Assembly (NCBI GenBank): GCA_019690095.1
Contig: JADGGD010000017.1
Location: 1-33,391, forward strand
Reading direction: 5' to 3'
From: Chloroflexota bacterium
GTDB lineage: Bacteria > Chloroflexota > UBA6077 > FW602-bin22 > CADDYW01
Length of the DNA: 33,391 nucleotides
The stretch's first letter is position 1, and every line of letters begins with the position of its first letter. Made by a program: the position numbers and the translations under genes. The notes beneath the pieces were generated by a model, which ran no database searches, was not told the DNA's origin, and worked only from the letters and a program-made list of their open reading frames with translations. Shown piece after piece: positions 17,171-25,064 of the stretch.

Positions 17171-18044
17171 GGAGTGCCTCCCGCGCGCGCGCCCGCATAA
17201 CCTCAATAGGTGCGGCACGGCCGGTCCATCGTTCGAAGGCGGCAGCCCCCTGGTAGATCAGCATCCCCAGTCCATTCAATGTACGGGCGCTGCGTGCAGC
17301 GGCCGCGGCCAGCAGGGGCGTGATCGGCGGGTTGTAGATGAGGTCAACCACAAGTGTCCGCGGTGAGATCCACGCCGGGTCAATCACCGTGGATGCGGGT
17401 GATGGATGACCGGCCATGCCCACTGGTGTTGCGTTCACCAGAACATCACAGGTCTCGATCGTTCTGCCAAGCATCTCCCCCGGACACGTGAGCCCGAGCA
17501 CGCGTGTCTCCATGCCCGGACCAAGCAGTTCTGTGCGTACCAGCATATCCCGGAGATCTTCGGCCTGCTCGATTCGTCGGGCACATATCGTGAGGATCGC
17601 CGCACGCTGCACGGCGGCCGCGGCGGCCACTGCTCGTGCCGCACCCCCCGCGCCGAGCAGGACAACGCGGCATCCGCCGAGATCCGTGCCTGCCTCGTCA
17701 CGGAGCGACCGCGTAAACCCCTCGACATCGGTGTTGTAGCCGACGAGCGTGCCATCCTCCTGACGGACGATCGTGTTCACTGCTGCAATGGCGCGGGCGA
17801 AGGGGTCGACAGCATCGAGCAGTGAGATGACGGCCTGCTTATGCGGGATCGTGACGTTGGCACCGAGGTAATCCGGTGCGCGGAGTCTGGCAATTGTCGT
17901 GGGGAGTGATCCCGGCGGCGTATCCCACGCCTCGTACCGGACCGGGAGGCCCAGCGCGTCGAACGCCGCCTGCTGGAAAGCAGGGGAGATCGAGTGGCCA
18001 ACCGGGTGACCGATCAGTCCGACGATCTGCATTGCCAGACTCAC
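17163..18044 (-). CDS. aroE: Shikimate dehydrogenase
   Basis: NADPH-dependent reduction of 3-dehydroshikimate to shikimate, the fourth step of the common aromatic pathway. The 293-aa protein has the substrate-binding GHSISPAFQ (residues 16-24), NVTIPHK with catalytic Lys69, YNTDVEGF with Asp106, the nucleotide motif GAGGAARAV (131-139), NATPVGM and [10 protein letters not shown] near the C-terminus. The GTG start overlaps the mltG stop as GTGA; an ATG four codons in is an alternative. It sits apart from aroF, aroC and aroA, so the pathway genes are spread over several units. Confidence 0.96.
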
Positions 18045-19159
18045 TGCTGACCGGAGGTGCCTTGATAGAGTGCTACGTTTCGCTCGTGCTCCTCAAGCGT
18101 CCGAGCGAACGCGTGAGAGCCGTCCGGCCGGGCAACGAAGTACAGGTACTCCGTCGAAGCGGGATGCGCTACGGCCTCGAGGGAGGACAGCCCCGGGTTG
18201 CAGATCGGGCCGGGCGGCAGTCCCGTCACGACGTAGGTATTGTAGGGCGAGCGGATCCGGAGGTCGAGCGCACTCAAAGCGCTCTTCCAGTACCCGCCCG
18301 GCGGCTCGGCCGCGGGATTGGGGCCAACCAGGGCGAACTGAACCGTTGGATCTGCCTGCAGGCGCATGCCCCGCTGGAGGCGGTTCAGGTACACCGAGGC
18401 AATCACCGGGCGCTCGTCGGGCCGTACTGCTTCCCGCTCTACGATCGAGGCCAGGGTGACGGCCTGGCGCAGGGTAAGCCCGTGGGCAGTGAAGCCCTGG
18501 AGGAGATCGGGGGTTAGGCGGTGCGCGAATGTTGCGACCATCGTCCGGGCGACTTCTGCGGCTGGCATTCGCGGCAGGAGCCGATAGCTGTCCGGATAAA
18601 GGAATCCTTCGAGTGAGCCCTGACCGATTGCCGGGGCAAGGACCGGTGGAAGGGGAAAGTCAGGGTGCTCTACCTCTGCCATGAAATCGGCACGGCCCGT
18701 CACACCGCCGTGTTCCAAGGCGTCGGCGATCTCGGTTGCTCGCCAGCCCTCTGGAATAGTCAGGAGATCACCGACCACCCGACCCTGTGCCAGGATCGAG
18801 ATCACGCGAGCCAGCGACATGTTCGGCCGAAGCTCATATTCGCCAGCCTCAAGGTGGGATCCGAGACCGGCCAGCTCAACCGCAAGCCGGAAGCCGAGTG
18901 CACTGCGCACGAGCCCGGCTGCCTGCAATTGCTCGCCCACCGCCGCCGCCGTCTCCCCCCGGCGGACCACGAACCGGACCGCACGATCATCACTGGAGAC
19001 AGGCTGGCCCAGGGTCACTTCAACAACCTGGAATGCCGCGCTGGCGGCCGAGCCCGTCTTCCAGATCAACAGCCCGGCTGTGACAATCACCAGGGCAAGA
19101 AGAGCGCCGAGAACAGCGCCCGCGCGAGTGAAGCGTGGCCACATCCTTGGAGTGCGCAT
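18041..19159 (-). CDS. mltG: Endolytic murein transglycosylase MltG
   Basis: Membrane-anchored lytic transglycosylase that cuts nascent glycan strands and so sets their length. The 372-aa protein has one N-terminal helix (about 13-33) after a short basic cytoplasmic stretch, a LysM-like region (about 60-125), and the YceG core with EGFLYPDSY (184-192), LASIVERE with the catalytic Glu241, VYLNRL, LQADPTVQF and SPYNTY. It lies downstream of ruvX; the ruvX-mltG-aroE order is common in several phyla. The start at 19159 lacks a clear ribosome-binding site. Confidence 0.95.
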   Translation of the reverse strand: MRTPRMWPRFTRAGAVLGALLALVIVTAGLLIWKTGSAASAAFQVVEVTLGQPVSSDDRAVRFVVRRGETAAAVGEQLQAAGLVRSALGFRLAVELAGLGSHLEAGEYELRPNMSLARVISILAQGRVVGDLLTIPEGWRATEIADALEHGGVTGRADFMAEVEHPDFPLPPVLAPAIGQGSLEGFLYPDSYRLLPRMPAAEVARTMVATFAHRLTPDLLQGFTAHGLTLRQAVTLASIVEREAVRPDERPVIASVYLNRLQRGMRLQADPTVQFALVGPNPAAEPPGGYWKSALSALDLRIRSPYNTYVVTGLPPGPICNPGLSSLEAVAHPASTEYLYFVARPDGSHAFARTLEEHERNVALYQGTSGQQ

Positions 19160-19175: not shown

Positions 19176-19184
19176 ATTCTATCA
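19176..19184 (-). promoter_or_regulatory. Extended -10-like element before mltG
   Basis: TGATAGAAT on the minus strand fits TGN-TANAAT and overlaps the ruvX stop. No matching -35 is seen. It would place a start site about 10 nt before the mltG ATG. The strength of this site is uncertain. Confidence 0.3.
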
Positions 19185-19613
19185 CATTGACGGTGTCGGC
19201 CTGGCGCGACGTGCGGTCAGCCCGGGGGCGCGCATCCCCGCGGCGCCCGCCGCATCGACCATCTCGGGGCGCGGGCGCGGGCGCACCCCCATGGCGACGA
19301 GCTCACGCATGGCATCCTGAGTCGAGAAGCGCTCATCCCAGGTCTCAACCGGGCGTGTCAGGCGCCTCTGCAGATAGCGTACGAATGCGAGTGTCTTCTC
19401 GGCCTGCTGTCCACGCGTTCCATCTGCGAGCAGGGGGATTCCAACAACGACAACGTCGACCCTGAGCTCGTCTATCAGGGCCTGGATCGCTTCGGCCACC
19501 TGCGGCTCGGAACGGCGGCGAAGGACAGTCAGGGGGCGGACGACCAGACCAGTTGGATCGCTGACGGCGACCCCGATCCGACGGTCACCGATATCAAGGC
19601 CGAGCGCTCTCAT
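19182..19613 (-). CDS. ruvX: RuvX/YqgF family putative pre-16S rRNA nuclease
   Basis: RNase H-like fold; in E. coli the family member YqgF is linked to maturation of the 16S rRNA 5' end, and it was first annotated as a Holliday junction resolvase. The 143-aa protein begins LGLDIGDRRIGVAVSD, with the first catalytic Asp at residue 7, and has VVVGIPL and the DERFST motif. The usual C-terminal helix with a hydrophobic ILQ-type pattern after VDAA is replaced by an Ala/Gly/Arg/Pro-rich tail. The ATG at 19613 overlaps the upstream gene as ATGA. Confidence 0.9.
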   Translation of the reverse strand: MRALGLDIGDRRIGVAVSDPTGLVVRPLTVLRRRSEPQVAEAIQALIDELRVDVVVVGIPLLADGTRGQQAEKTLAFVRYLQRRLTRPVETWDERFSTQDAMRELVAMGVRPRPRPEMVDAAGAAGMRAPGLTARRARPTPSM

Positions 19614-21112
19614 GGTGCAACTGCAGGTGCTGGTCTGGAGGAGCTGGAGTCGATGATCTGGACGCGGAGGGCGACCGGCATCCAATGGGGGATGATCTCG
19701 ACCCGGGCTGGTTTCGCAAGGCCGGGCAGGTGGGCAAGGTCGCGCTGGGCATCGCCAGGCGGTCGGAGGCGCACATACGAAGCGATTACATCGGTATTCA
19801 AGGCAGCCTCAACCGTTGCCGTCAGTGGAACATCGAAGATGATGCCATGATCAGCGGTCCTGCTCACGATCCGCGATGATCCGACGCGGATCGAGCCGGC
19901 ACGCGGCACGTAGCCGCCTGGGATTTGCGGCTGCCAGCGCAGCGCGGCGACCGTGGCAAGGTCGCTCTGGCTCACGATTATGGCGTGGGCCCGTGCTGTG
20001 AGGTGGACGGTTACGCGCGATGCTGCCTCTCCCGGCAAGTGATCGAATACCTCCTCAATCGGTTGGATATCGACCGTCTCCGGTACGACCGTCTCACCAG
20101 GAAGGGTCTGCGCTTCAAGGGCTGCTGCCGCCCTGCGCCGCGCCTCGGCCATAGCCTGATCCACGGTCGCTTTGGTTTCCCAGGCGGTCACGAACGGCTC
20201 CCCTGGCGGGCCACCTCCGACGATCGGCTCCGCGTTGACGGCCGTGATGAGCCAGCGGAGACGTCCTCCGACGACGATGACCTGTCCGCGCTCCGCATTG
20301 CTGGCCGTGCCGGCGAACAGCGCGATAATCGGTATCGTTGCCGTCGCGCCAACACGTGGGGGAAGGGTAACCGGTTGGGTTGTCTGATAATGGATGCCGG
20401 AGATCGTGCTGAAATCGCTCCCCGCTGGGACGACGACCGGTTCAGTTGTGCGATTTTCAACGGTGATATAGCCCACGGCGCGGCCATCCGTGGAACGCCC
20501 GGGACCGGGCACCCGTGCTGTGGCGGAAGTGTGGATTTCCAGGTAGACATCACGCGCCGGAATCAGTCCCCGTGAGGGATCAGCGTGCGTAGCCTGGGTG
20601 TCCGCCTGCACGCGCACAGTTCCGCTGATCGATTGGGAGATCGGCTGCACGTAGACGACAGCACGCGGGACGAGGAGGCCCACGACCAGCGCGAAACTAA
20701 CAACAAGGGTGATCGCAGCAAGCCAGGTCAGACTGCCTGCCACGTGATCCTGCAGATCGTGAAGGCTGGCGCGCAGGGGGGATGGAAGTTGATCCTCCGG
20801 AGGGGAGAGAGATCTCAAAGAAGAAAAGGTTGGCAATCCCTCTGCGTGCGCCAGGCGGCGAAGTGGCCGCGCCCGGGACACGAGGGCAAGACGGATAGAC
20901 TCGCGCGCGGCGGCCCGGGCCAGGAGTCGCAGGGCGAGCGGGACGGCCAGTCGCGGGTTGTGGTCGGGTATCACGAGTGCGACCCGCCGGTGCGTCACCG
21001 CGAGAAGCTTCGCCCGCAGTGATGCAGCATCATCAGCGGCATCAGCGACGATACAGCGGAATGCCCCTCCCTCTGACGGCTGGTCTTCTCCCGGAGACGG
21101 TCCGTTCCACAC
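19610..21112 (-). CDS. Baseplate-J-like single-pass membrane protein, function unknown
   Basis: 500 aa. An N-terminal alpha/beta-looking cytoplasmic region (about 19-100, with VALVIPDHNPRLAVPLALRL at 44-63) is followed by a linker, one membrane helix (about 128-149) and a large beta-rich domain. The part around 212-250 (GYITVENRTTEPVVVPAGSD at 214-233) resembles the phage baseplate J/gp47 family, and the C-terminus has a conserved-looking IIPHWMP motif (473-479). Similar proteins are known to me from Chloroflexota; this is recollection, not a search. GTG start with GAGGG 8 nt upstream. It lies 44 nt after alaS and is coupled to ruvX by ATGA. There are no other phage genes nearby. Confidence 0.7.
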   Translation of the reverse strand: MWNGPSPGEDQPSEGGAFRCIVADAADDAASLRAKLLAVTHRRVALVIPDHNPRLAVPLALRLLARAAARESIRLALVSRARPLRRLAHAEGLPTFSSLRSLSPPEDQLPSPLRASLHDLQDHVAGSLTWLAAITLVVSFALVVGLLVPRAVVYVQPISQSISGTVRVQADTQATHADPSRGLIPARDVYLEIHTSATARVPGPGRSTDGRAVGYITVENRTTEPVVVPAGSDFSTISGIHYQTTQPVTLPPRVGATATIPIIALFAGTASNAERGQVIVVGGRLRWLITAVNAEPIVGGGPPGEPFVTAWETKATVDQAMAEARRRAAAALEAQTLPGETVVPETVDIQPIEEVFDHLPGEAASRVTVHLTARAHAIIVSQSDLATVAALRWQPQIPGGYVPRAGSIRVGSSRIVSRTADHGIIFDVPLTATVEAALNTDVIASYVRLRPPGDAQRDLAHLPGLAKPARVEIIPHWMPVALRVQIIDSSSSRPAPAVAP

Positions 21113-21156: not shown

Positions 21157-23763
21157 TCAGCGGCCGAGGTGAGCCCGTACGTACGGAACGACCTCGGCGA
21201 GCGCTTCGGAGAGTTTCTCCGGATGTCGGCCACCAGCTTGCGCGAGATCGGGCCGGCCGCCTCCGCTTCCCCCGATCCGGATGGCTACCGTTCGCGCGAG
21301 ATCCGCCGCGTTGATCCCGACCCCGGGCGTTACCATGGCCACAAGACCAGGCCTACCGTTAAAGACGCTCCCGAGGACAACCACGCCGCGCTGGACGCGA
21401 TCGCGCAGGACATCACCCATCTCGCGAAGGGCCTCAGTGCTGGGAGCATCAACCCGCGCTGAGACAACCGTGATTCCATCAACCTGCACCGCCTCGTTCA
21501 ACAACCGCTCGGCCTGGCTCGCTGCTAGCTGGCGCCGCAGCTGCGCGACAGTGCGACGTTCTGCCTGCAACTCTTCTAGCAAGGCCTGTACCCGCACTTC
21601 GGGTTCGCCGCCCAGCCGGCTGCTCATTCGATCAAACGCGGCCAGGCGCTCCCGGATAAAGCGCACGGCAGGCTCGCCCGCGAGCGCCTCGATCCGCCGC
21701 ACGCCTGCCCCGACGCTCTGCTCGGAGACAATGACGAAGGCGCCGATATCGCCGGTGCGTTCCACATGCGTGCCGCCGCAGAGTTCACAGCTGTAGTCAC
21801 CGAAGCACACCATGCGGACGCGCTCGCCGTACTTCTCGCCGAACAGCGCCATGGCCCCGGCTGCCAGCGCTTCCTGATAGGTCGTGATCGTCGTGCCCCG
21901 AGGGAGGTTCGCTCGGATCTCCTCGTTGACCCGCGCTTCGATCGCCGCCAGCTCCTCGGGGGTGACCGCTTGGAAGTGCGTGAAGTCAAAGCGAAGCCGG
22001 TCCGGAGCGACCAGGGATCCGGCCTGCTGGACGTGTGTTCCAAGAATCTCCCGAAGTGCCTTGTGGAGAAGATGGGTCGCGGAGTGATGGCGGGCGATGC
22101 TCGCTCGCCGCTCTGCGTCAACCGTCGCTTCGACGATGTCCCCTGCCAGCAGAGCACCCTCCAGGATGCGCACGCGGTGGACGATCAGGTTTGGCACTGG
22201 CCGTTGGGTATCGAGAACCTCGGCAACTCCCCGTTCGTTGGCGATCCGTCCTGTGTCACCAACCTGGCCGCCCGCTTCAGCGTAGAACGGGGTTTCTCGC
22301 AGGACAATCTCACCCTCATCGCCCGCGGCCATGTCACCGACGATTCGTCCTCCCATAATCATTCCAACGATCTGGGACGTTGCCGCAAGACGGGTATAGC
22401 CCAGAAACTCCACCTCCAGGGGGAGTTGGGCGTATGCCTCGGCGTTCTGCCGTGCGCCTGCGCCGAATTTGGACGCTGCCCGCGCCTTCTCTCTCTGCTC
22501 GGCCATCGCCTGCTGGAATCCCTCAAGATCCACCCGGAGGCCAGCTTCTCGCGCCAGCTCAGTCGTGAGCTCGACCGGGAAGCCGTAGGTGTCATAGAGG
22601 CGGAACACGTCGCTCCCGGCGAGTTCGGTGCGGCCGGCCTGCCGCGCCTCGGCGATGAACTGATCCAACAGGTTGAGCCCAACGGCGAGCGTCTGGCCGA
22701 AGCGGCTCTCCTCCATTTCGATGACCTTACAAATGAAGTCACGCCGCTGGACAAGCTCGGGATAGGTCGTGCCCATCAGGTCGATCACTACACCAGCCGT
22801 CTCACCGAGGAAGGTGCGCTCGATCCCGAGCCGCCGTCCGTGGCGAACAGCGCGGCGAAGGACGCGCCGAAGGATGTAGCCGCGCCCCTCGTTACTGGGA
22901 AGTACGCCGTCAGCGACCAGGAACGTCACAGCCCGGCTGTGGTCGGCGACGACGCGCAGGGAGTAATCAGCCGACTCATCCGCGCCGTAGCGCACCCCGG
23001 CAATGTCCGCGGCCTTCTGGATGATTGGAGCAAAGAGGTCAGTCTCATAGACTGTGCGCTTGTCCTGGAGGAGCATGGTCAGGCGCTCCAGCCCCATGCC
23101 CGTATCGATATTCTTCCGCGGCAAGGGGGACAGGGCACCGGTTTCGTCGCGGTAATACTGCATGAAGACCAGATTCCAGACCTCCAGGAAGCGCGGGCAG
23201 TCACAGCCGGGCTGGCAGGTCGGTCGTCCACACCCAAACTCTGGCCCGCGGTCGTAGTAGATCTCCGAGTCAGGGCCATTCGGGCCGACGGGTCCGGCTT
23301 CCCACCAGTTATCCGGGAGGCGGATGATCCGCTCGGCGGGGACGCCGGTCACCCGCTGCCAGGCCACGAAGGCCTCCTCGTCATCTGGATAGATTGTTGG
23401 CCAGAGACGCTTCGGATCAAAGCCCGCCTGCTGTGTGAGGAACTCCCAGGCAAAGGCGATGGCTCCTTCCTTGAAGTAGTCGCCTACGGAGAAATTGCCC
23501 AGCATCTCGAAGAAGGTGAGATTCCGCTCATTCCCGACCGTTTCGATGTCCACGGTTCGGAAGCACTTCTGGACGCTGGCCAGACGCGGTCCCGGAGGCG
23601 TGGCCTGGCCGAGGAAATACGGCTTGATCTGGACCATCCCGGCGTTGGTCAGCAGCAGGGAGGGATCCCCCTCTGGCACGAGCGAGGAGCTTGGAAGGAC
23701 AATGTGATCCTTTTGCTGGAAAAACCGGAGAAAGGCGTTCCGGATCTCGCTGCTGGTCTTCAT
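21157..23763 (-). CDS. alaS: Alanyl-tRNA synthetase
   Basis: Class II synthetase with editing activity. The 868-aa protein has the catalytic core (motif 1 area; FFEMLGNFSVGDYFK at 84-98; NIDTGMGLERL at 218-228), a cysteine cluster at 178, 183, 187 and 189 seen in several AlaS lineages, a tRNA-recognition helical domain with GRGYILRRVLRRAVRHG (293-309), an editing domain with HHSATH (559-564) and CGGTHV (662-667), and a C-terminal coiled coil and C-Ala globular domain. The ATG at 23763 fits the family N-terminus. It follows larC by only 11 nt, so it probably shares that transcript. Confidence 0.98.
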   Translation of the reverse strand: MKTSSEIRNAFLRFFQQKDHIVLPSSSLVPEGDPSLLLTNAGMVQIKPYFLGQATPPGPRLASVQKCFRTVDIETVGNERNLTFFEMLGNFSVGDYFKEGAIAFAWEFLTQQAGFDPKRLWPTIYPDDEEAFVAWQRVTGVPAERIIRLPDNWWEAGPVGPNGPDSEIYYDRGPEFGCGRPTCQPGCDCPRFLEVWNLVFMQYYRDETGALSPLPRKNIDTGMGLERLTMLLQDKRTVYETDLFAPIIQKAADIAGVRYGADESADYSLRVVADHSRAVTFLVADGVLPSNEGRGYILRRVLRRAVRHGRRLGIERTFLGETAGVVIDLMGTTYPELVQRRDFICKVIEMEESRFGQTLAVGLNLLDQFIAEARQAGRTELAGSDVFRLYDTYGFPVELTTELAREAGLRVDLEGFQQAMAEQREKARAASKFGAGARQNAEAYAQLPLEVEFLGYTRLAATSQIVGMIMGGRIVGDMAAGDEGEIVLRETPFYAEAGGQVGDTGRIANERGVAEVLDTQRPVPNLIVHRVRILEGALLAGDIVEATVDAERRASIARHHSATHLLHKALREILGTHVQQAGSLVAPDRLRFDFTHFQAVTPEELAAIEARVNEEIRANLPRGTTITTYQEALAAGAMALFGEKYGERVRMVCFGDYSCELCGGTHVERTGDIGAFVIVSEQSVGAGVRRIEALAGEPAVRFIRERLAAFDRMSSRLGGEPEVRVQALLEELQAERRTVAQLRRQLAASQAERLLNEAVQVDGITVVSARVDAPSTEALREMGDVLRDRVQRGVVVLGSVFNGRPGLVAMVTPGVGINAADLARTVAIRIGGSGGGRPDLAQAGGRHPEKLSEALAEVVPYVRAHLGR

Positions 23764-23774
23764 TGCTCGTGTCC

Positions 23775-25064
23775 TCACCCTCGCATATCCACAGAGAAAG
23801 GTCTGGCGCTCGCCCGGTCGTTCTCCTGATCGGCCCGATCCGACGATGCCCCGGAAGGCCGGCGATCGGCTGGCGGATCGAAATCTTCTGTATATTTTAT
23901 CCTTCCCGTCTGGGCACACGCAATCGCAGCGCGGTATACCTCGGCGATAGGGACCCCGGCTGCTCGGGCGGCCTGGCGGCATGCCTCAAACTCCGGCGCG
24001 GCGACCAGTCGCTGGCCGATCTGCTTCACCTTGACCGCTACCTCACCCCACGGCGTTTCCACCACCCCATGGCGGCGCGGGCTCTTCAGGCGCCGCGCTT
24101 CCCAGATCCGAACGCCGAGGGTCGAGGTCTCCTCGAGCACACGGGCGGCGAGGGCATCAATGCGCGCTGGCTCAGCCAGCACGGTGAGCTTCACCGCGGG
24201 ACGGTTCTTCTTCATCTGGATCGGGGTAAACGATACGTCCAGGGCCCCCGCATCCAGGAGGGTTTCCATGGCCGCCCCCAGGATCTCCGGCGACTCGTCG
24301 TCAAGGTTGGCCTCGAGGATGCTCACGCGGTCGCTCTCGAGGGCTGGCGTTCCCTCGCCAAGCCACAGGCGGAGTACGTTCGGCCAGGGAAGGGTTTTCT
24401 GGCCGAAGCCGTAGCCGACCGCTTCGAGAGAGAGAGCCGGCTGCTCGAAGCGGGCCAGCGCGGCCAGGAGAGCGGCCCCGGTCGGGGTAACCAGCTCGGT
24501 CATGGCTGGGCTGGCCCGCAAGGGGGCCCGGCAGCGCGCGAGCAGGGCCATGGTCGCGGGGGCCGGGACCGGGAGTGTTCCGTGGGCTGTCTCCACCGTG
24601 CCGGTGCCGGTGGGCACCGGTGATGCATAGACCGCCCTGATGCCCAGCGTGTGCAGGCCCCATGCCGCCCCGACAATATCGACAATCGAGTCGACTGCCC
24701 CCACCTCGTGGAAATGCACCTCCTCTGGCGTCACGCCGTGGATCTGTGCCTCGGCCTCGGCTAGAAGACGAAAGACGCGCCCGGCAGTCTCGCGAACCGG
24801 AGGCGGCAGGGAACCGTGGTCAAGGATCTCCTGGATCTCGTGCAGGTGTCGGGCTGTCTTCGCCTGCTCATCCGGGATCACCCGGACCACGTGCCCGGTG
24901 ATCCCCTGGCGGGTGATCCGTTCGGCTTCAATCCGGACCCGTTCAATGGGGAGCGATGCTACCATTGCCCGTAGATCGGCCAGAGAGAGGCCCAGATCGA
25001 GCATCGCCGCGAGAACCATATCCCCACTGATGCCCGAGAAGCAGTCAAAATACAGGATCTTCAT
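23775..25064 (-). CDS. larC: Nickel-pincer cofactor biosynthesis protein LarC
   Basis: Inserts nickel, in a CTP-dependent step, into the pyridinium-bis-thiocarboxylate precursor to complete the nickel-pincer nucleotide used by LarA-type enzymes. The 429-aa protein begins KILYFDCFSGISGDM (residues 2-16) and contains HFHEVGAVDSIVDIVGAA, ETAHGTLPVPAPAT, LEANLDDESPEILG and KKNRPAVKLTVLA. It is one continuous frame, unlike Lactiplantibacillus plantarum, where larC needs a programmed frameshift. The His-rich linker seen in some family members is absent. The last 35 residues are a charged tail. ATG with GGAGG upstream, 15 nt after a terminator. Confidence 0.93.
   Translation of the reverse strand: MKILYFDCFSGISGDMVLAAMLDLGLSLADLRAMVASLPIERVRIEAERITRQGITGHVVRVIPDEQAKTARHLHEIQEILDHGSLPPPVRETAGRVFRLLAEAEAQIHGVTPEEVHFHEVGAVDSIVDIVGAAWGLHTLGIRAVYASPVPTGTGTVETAHGTLPVPAPATMALLARCRAPLRASPAMTELVTPTGAALLAALARFEQPALSLEAVGYGFGQKTLPWPNVLRLWLGEGTPALESDRVSILEANLDDESPEILGAAMETLLDAGALDVSFTPIQMKKNRPAVKLTVLAEPARIDALAARVLEETSTLGVRIWEARRLKSPRRHGVVETPWGEVAVKVKQIGQRLVAAPEFEACRQAARAAGVPIAEVYRAAIACAQTGRIKYTEDFDPPADRRPSGASSDRADQENDRASARPFSVDMRG

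Follow-up and report, generated by a model that had tools for sequence, protein, structure and literature searches.

A single-pass envelope protein with a baseplate-J-type barrel, encoded between alaS and ruvX-mltG in two bacterial phyla

Gene X, an open reading frame between alaS and ruvX in a Chloroflexota genome, encodes an ancient cell-envelope membrane protein that occupies the same position across two bacterial phyla. A role at the envelope is well supported, and a direct partnership with the lytic transglycosylase MltG is plausible. We think it just probable that X serves peptidoglycan synthesis as a receptor or scaffold, with a ligand, a partner and a direction of signalling that we infer.

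The window, i.e. the whole stretch of DNA that we analysed, comprises 33,391 nucleotides. X is a 500-codon frame with a GTG start on the minus strand, and the plus strand contains four stops across the same interval. A sequence-only reading of this DNA had proposed the 500-aa protein without giving a strand; the frame is real and lies on the minus strand. The order on this strand is alaS, X, ruvX and mltG, followed by aroE, hslV and hslU. The stop codon of alaS, the upstream gene, is separated from X by 44 nt, and the stop of X overlaps the ATG of ruvX as ATGA (19613-19610), an overlap that had been pointed out before and is directly visible in the sequence. The genome holds one copy of X. AlaS has its best relative in an uncultured Anaerolineae (52% identity), and named Chloroflexota loci share the gene order, which makes a Chloroflexota host very probable. 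The genes and the parts of X are as follows:

21157..23982, minus strand: alaS (PF01411, 4.9e-195)
19610..21112, minus strand: gene X, bitopic membrane protein of the baseplate-J-barrel family, 500 aa (open reading frame, Pfam and AF2 model)
20798..21058, minus strand: X residues 19-105, cytoplasmic Rossmann-like alpha/beta domain (AF2 model; conserved in 44 homologues)
20675..20731, minus strand: X residues 128-146, single membrane helix with the N-terminus inside (AF2 helix 111-146; charge bias)
20501..20671, minus strand: X residues 148-204, first strands of the ectodomain, starting at the invariant Pro149 (alignment and AF2 model)
20213..20500, minus strand: X residues 205-300, baseplate-J-like beta barrel (PF04865, PHROG, PDB profile and Foldseek)
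19625..20209, minus strand: X residues 302-496, C-terminal alpha/beta domain (AF2 model of the domain alone, pLDDT 92.4)
19182..19613, minus strand: ruvX (PF03652, 8.4e-33; ATGA overlap with X)
18041..19159, minus strand: mltG (YceG), membrane lytic transglycosylase (PF02618, 2.8e-84)

A search with the single protein matched 182 of 400 genomes of the phylum, and a family profile matched 237 of 300 near-complete Chloroflexota genomes, although a few of these 237 matches are weak, cover the barrel only and may represent true tail proteins. The order alaS, X, ruvX, mltG is found on one strand, as far as the contigs reach, in 54 of 60 loci fetched from the phylum. Of the six exceptions, five are additional copies in one family, f30, and the sixth is a locus of family f69 (L051:4965-6527), where X lies outside the operon beside a glycosyltransferase, a TnpB-like gene and proteins without Pfam families. 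Among loci of named genomes, which were retrieved through alaS, X is present in Anaerolineae, other Chloroflexi and Herpetosiphonaceae; alaS and ruvX occur without X in one Dehalococcoidia, in Actinobacteria, in Nitrospira and in several Bacillota. A Bacillota sample around Desulfosporosinus gave matches in 49 of 199 genomes; in about 32 the match spans most of the profile, and in the others the barrel alone. In all 19 full-length Bacillota loci that were fetched, ruvX comes after X on the same strand, and mltG is usually next. The survey of gene order that had been suggested thus shows conservation across two phyla rather than sporadic occurrence outside this synteny. In six MltG-positive loci without X, alaS directly adjoins ruvX and mltG, indicating that X is a cleanly separable module.

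The ATGA overlap with ruvX and the direct neighbourhood of alaS could mean that X belongs with one of these two proteins, for example as a membrane tether for translation or recombination. However, RuvX and AlaS are widespread without X, the bulk of X is outside the cytoplasm, and the correlation between X and RuvX distances, given AlaS and composition, is only 0.08-0.13. Such an association is highly improbable.

We modelled X with AF2 from an alignment of 47 homologues. The model has a mean pLDDT of 90.6 and a pTM of 0.60, and the relative placement of the domains is therefore uncertain. The cytoplasmic alpha/beta N-domain that the sequence-only reading had predicted appears in the model as a Rossmann-like fold, and the single membrane helix, also predicted, is placed at about residues 128-146 by the model and by the charge bias across homologues. 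The 25 residues before the helix contain a mean of 4.5 Lys and Arg residues in the 47 homologues, versus 1.6 after it; by the positive-inside rule, 38 of the 47 homologues are N-in and 5 are N-out. The ectodomain comprises residues 148-496 (approximately 350 residues). Alignment and synteny show that N-domain, helix, barrel and C-domain occur together in the family encoded in the alaS-X-ruvX-mltG order. Neither X nor its homologues match a Pfam family in the N-domain, which also gave no convincing PDB profile match, and a fold search with the model of the C-domain returned no PDB match with E <= 0.001.

The barrel, residues 205-300, is truly homologous to phage baseplate J (Mu gp47, PF04865, phiCD508 gp65), both by sequence profile and by fold. 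X matches PF04865 with 24.3 bits (cut-off, 21.1 bits), and the barrel of X matches the PHROG family phrog_6 (2.3e-12); PF04865 is found in 42 of 47 homologues. PDB profile matches were obtained to baseplate proteins of phi812 (9.1e-7) and phiCD508 (9.5e-7), and Foldseek superimposes the barrel on phiCD508 baseplate J with an rmsd of 2.5 Å over 102 columns. Gly214 and Gly268 are invariant in the barrel, which ends in a conserved N..P..GG pattern. The matches to J proteins end near residue 300, and the full-length J architecture is not seen in X. The likeness to baseplate J claimed for the whole ectodomain therefore stands, in sequence and in structure, for these ~95 residues but not for the rest of the ~350. 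Unlike baseplate J, X is anchored in the membrane, has an added cytoplasmic domain and a different C-domain, and is a chromosomal protein linked to mltG without tail partners. Foldseek also matches X to the beta-barrel domain of GlxA, a Streptomyces copper oxidase (PF21110; E about 5e-6), with weak Pfam matches to PF21110 in three homologues. GlxA is a secreted oxidase and shares no membrane or cytoplasmic domain with X. The resemblance of the X barrel (window 20213-20500) to this domain indicates that J-type barrels are not confined to phage-like machines.

The homology of the barrel raises the question of whether X is a domesticated phage or contractile-injection baseplate protein with a continuing role in such a machine, for instance as its membrane anchor. 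The same genome does encode an unlinked contractile injection cluster (contig C57:9000-20977), which comprises CIS tube, Phage_base_V, PAAR, gp25, a 753-aa baseplate J protein and Tail_P2_I. However, this cluster has its own J protein, and the rest of X is unlike J, with its cytoplasmic domain and helix added and its C-domain without a match. There is no phage or tail gene among the neighbours of X, as the sequence-only reading had noted for this locus; the neighbours are housekeeping genes, and they recur in relatives. A single-protein search found no relatives of X in viral contigs, and the same type of search in the collected genome contigs gave no match. Since the distribution of X moreover follows that of MltG and the peptidoglycan genes (see below), we regard continued service in a baseplate as very unlikely. 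We likewise reject an origin of the locus from a phage or prophage, given the housekeeping neighbours and the separate injection cluster with its own J. With the automatic label that it is likely to receive (baseplate J/gp47, phage tail), X would go unrecognised as a conserved envelope gene of entire phyla.

In the same 300 near-complete Chloroflexota genomes, MltG is present in 263 and RodA/FtsW in 265. X is found in 235 of the 263 genomes with MltG and in 2 of the 37 without it (Fisher p 5e-26, computed ignoring shared ancestry, so that the independent losses are fewer than those counted); it is found in 1 of the 35 genomes without RodA/FtsW. The families that lack X, MltG and RodA/FtsW include one with genomes of 1.4-1.9 Mb (f21), which we take to be Dehalococcoides and Dehalogenimonas, i.e. 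Dehalococcoidia. Loss of peptidoglycan within Dehalococcoidia has been published (PMC10284905). That X hardly occurs outside genomes with MltG and peptidoglycan genes supports the earlier proposal of a cellular rather than a prophage role. On the other hand, 28 genomes have MltG but no X, which shows that X is not needed everywhere for MltG function. Across all loci, the distances of X correlate with those of MltG beyond what AlaS explains (partial correlation, 0.46) and favour MltG over RuvX, and this co-evolution looked specific. Within Chloroflexota alone, however, it does not clearly stand out: the distance correlation there is 0.29 for X and MltG versus 0.26 for RuvX and MltG. Of the suggestion that X acts at the envelope with the murein transglycosylase, the envelope role is supported, whereas direct partnership with MltG goes no further than plausible.

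The main rival to a receptor or scaffold is a purely structural envelope role, with X an adhesin, an S-layer or wall anchor or another structural element that is merely housed in a housekeeping operon and needs a walled cell, with neither a tie to MltG nor signalling. The beta-rich ectodomain, the unrelated housekeeping partners AlaS and RuvX, the MltG-positive genomes without X and the unspecific co-variation within Chloroflexota are all in keeping with such a protein. Nevertheless, a conserved cytoplasmic alpha/beta domain would not be expected of a purely structural surface protein, nor would the kinase fusions described below, and the position beside mltG has been kept in two phyla. We therefore consider the structural role rather unlikely.

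Family f30, presumably Ktedonobacteria, has genomes of 3-14 Mb. The canonical X of this family is still in the operon and has a long linker, and further copies of the X-type helix and ectodomain occur elsewhere in these genomes. In at least six f30 genomes, this helix and ectodomain are fused in a single open reading frame to a Ser/Thr kinase (L089:5013-10248, L245, L246, L248, L249 and L243); the fused kinase domain matches PF00069 with 1.6e-40 and 3.8e-46. The fusions are paralogues restricted to this one family, lie outside the operon and often stand in tandem with further ectodomain genes. X itself has no kinase domain in Pfam. The fusions show that the X ectodomain is modular and can be connected to a signalling enzyme, and their layout, which is that of a PASTA receptor kinase, speaks for an ectodomain that senses or binds something extracellular.

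The PASTA-type Ser/Thr kinases (PknB, PrkC, StkP and IreK) have the same single-pass arrangement of a cytoplasmic signalling domain, a helix and an ectodomain, and they are linked to cell-wall genes, as X is. In contrast, X carries a Rossmann-like domain where these proteins have the kinase, and it lacks PASTA repeats, none appearing among the Pfam matches listed for X and 46 homologues. The membrane transglycosylase MltG cleaves nascent peptidoglycan strands alongside the PBPs (PMC8135044), and the PASTA kinase StkP putatively targets it in pneumococcus (PMC7011611), which makes a regulator encoded beside mltG plausible. As a receptor or scaffold, X would be a component of the peptidoglycan-synthesis machinery in the inner membrane, maintained by vertical descent. 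Its J-type barrel and C-domain would bind either a ligand in the cell wall or a partner in the envelope, for which MltG and the synthases that work with it are the likeliest candidates. The single helix would pass the bound state to the Rossmann-like domain, which would relay it to a cytoplasmic partner; in one Chloroflexota family, a Ser/Thr kinase would have taken over this relay. Used in this way, a phage-type barrel would serve as a receptor-like ectodomain. More tentatively, barrel and C-domain may together constitute an undescribed cell-wall sensing module, a counterpart of the PASTA repeats, which in Chloroflexota and part of Bacillota couples the state of the peptidoglycan to a novel output domain in the cytoplasm or, in a single family, to Ser/Thr kinases.

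A comparable operon slot is occupied by IreB/YrzL (DUF965), a small protein adjoining alaS in many Bacillota. It is linked to alaS and to regulation of the wall (PMC9425974). However, IreB is small and cytoplasmic, and X has no Pfam match to it. The barrel as a domain and single-pass sensors as a kind are already known; the combination of domains, the conservation and the wall link of X appear undescribed, and we found no published description of the gene in the open-licence PMC literature. X is a testable candidate for control of wall synthesis beside MltG in Chloroflexota, whose walls are poorly understood, and in deep Bacillota.

X is essentially absent from an Actinomycetota sample. One genome from this sample has a 9.9-kb contig that encodes an AT-rich X of 610 aa with a long linker (L231:172-2001); it looks like a Patescibacteria-type sequence and may be contamination. 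In one of the 19 Bacillota loci, X and ruvX are separated by a gene that encodes an aldo/keto reductase with ferredoxin-type cysteines and overlaps the start of ruvX (L214:5002-5964).
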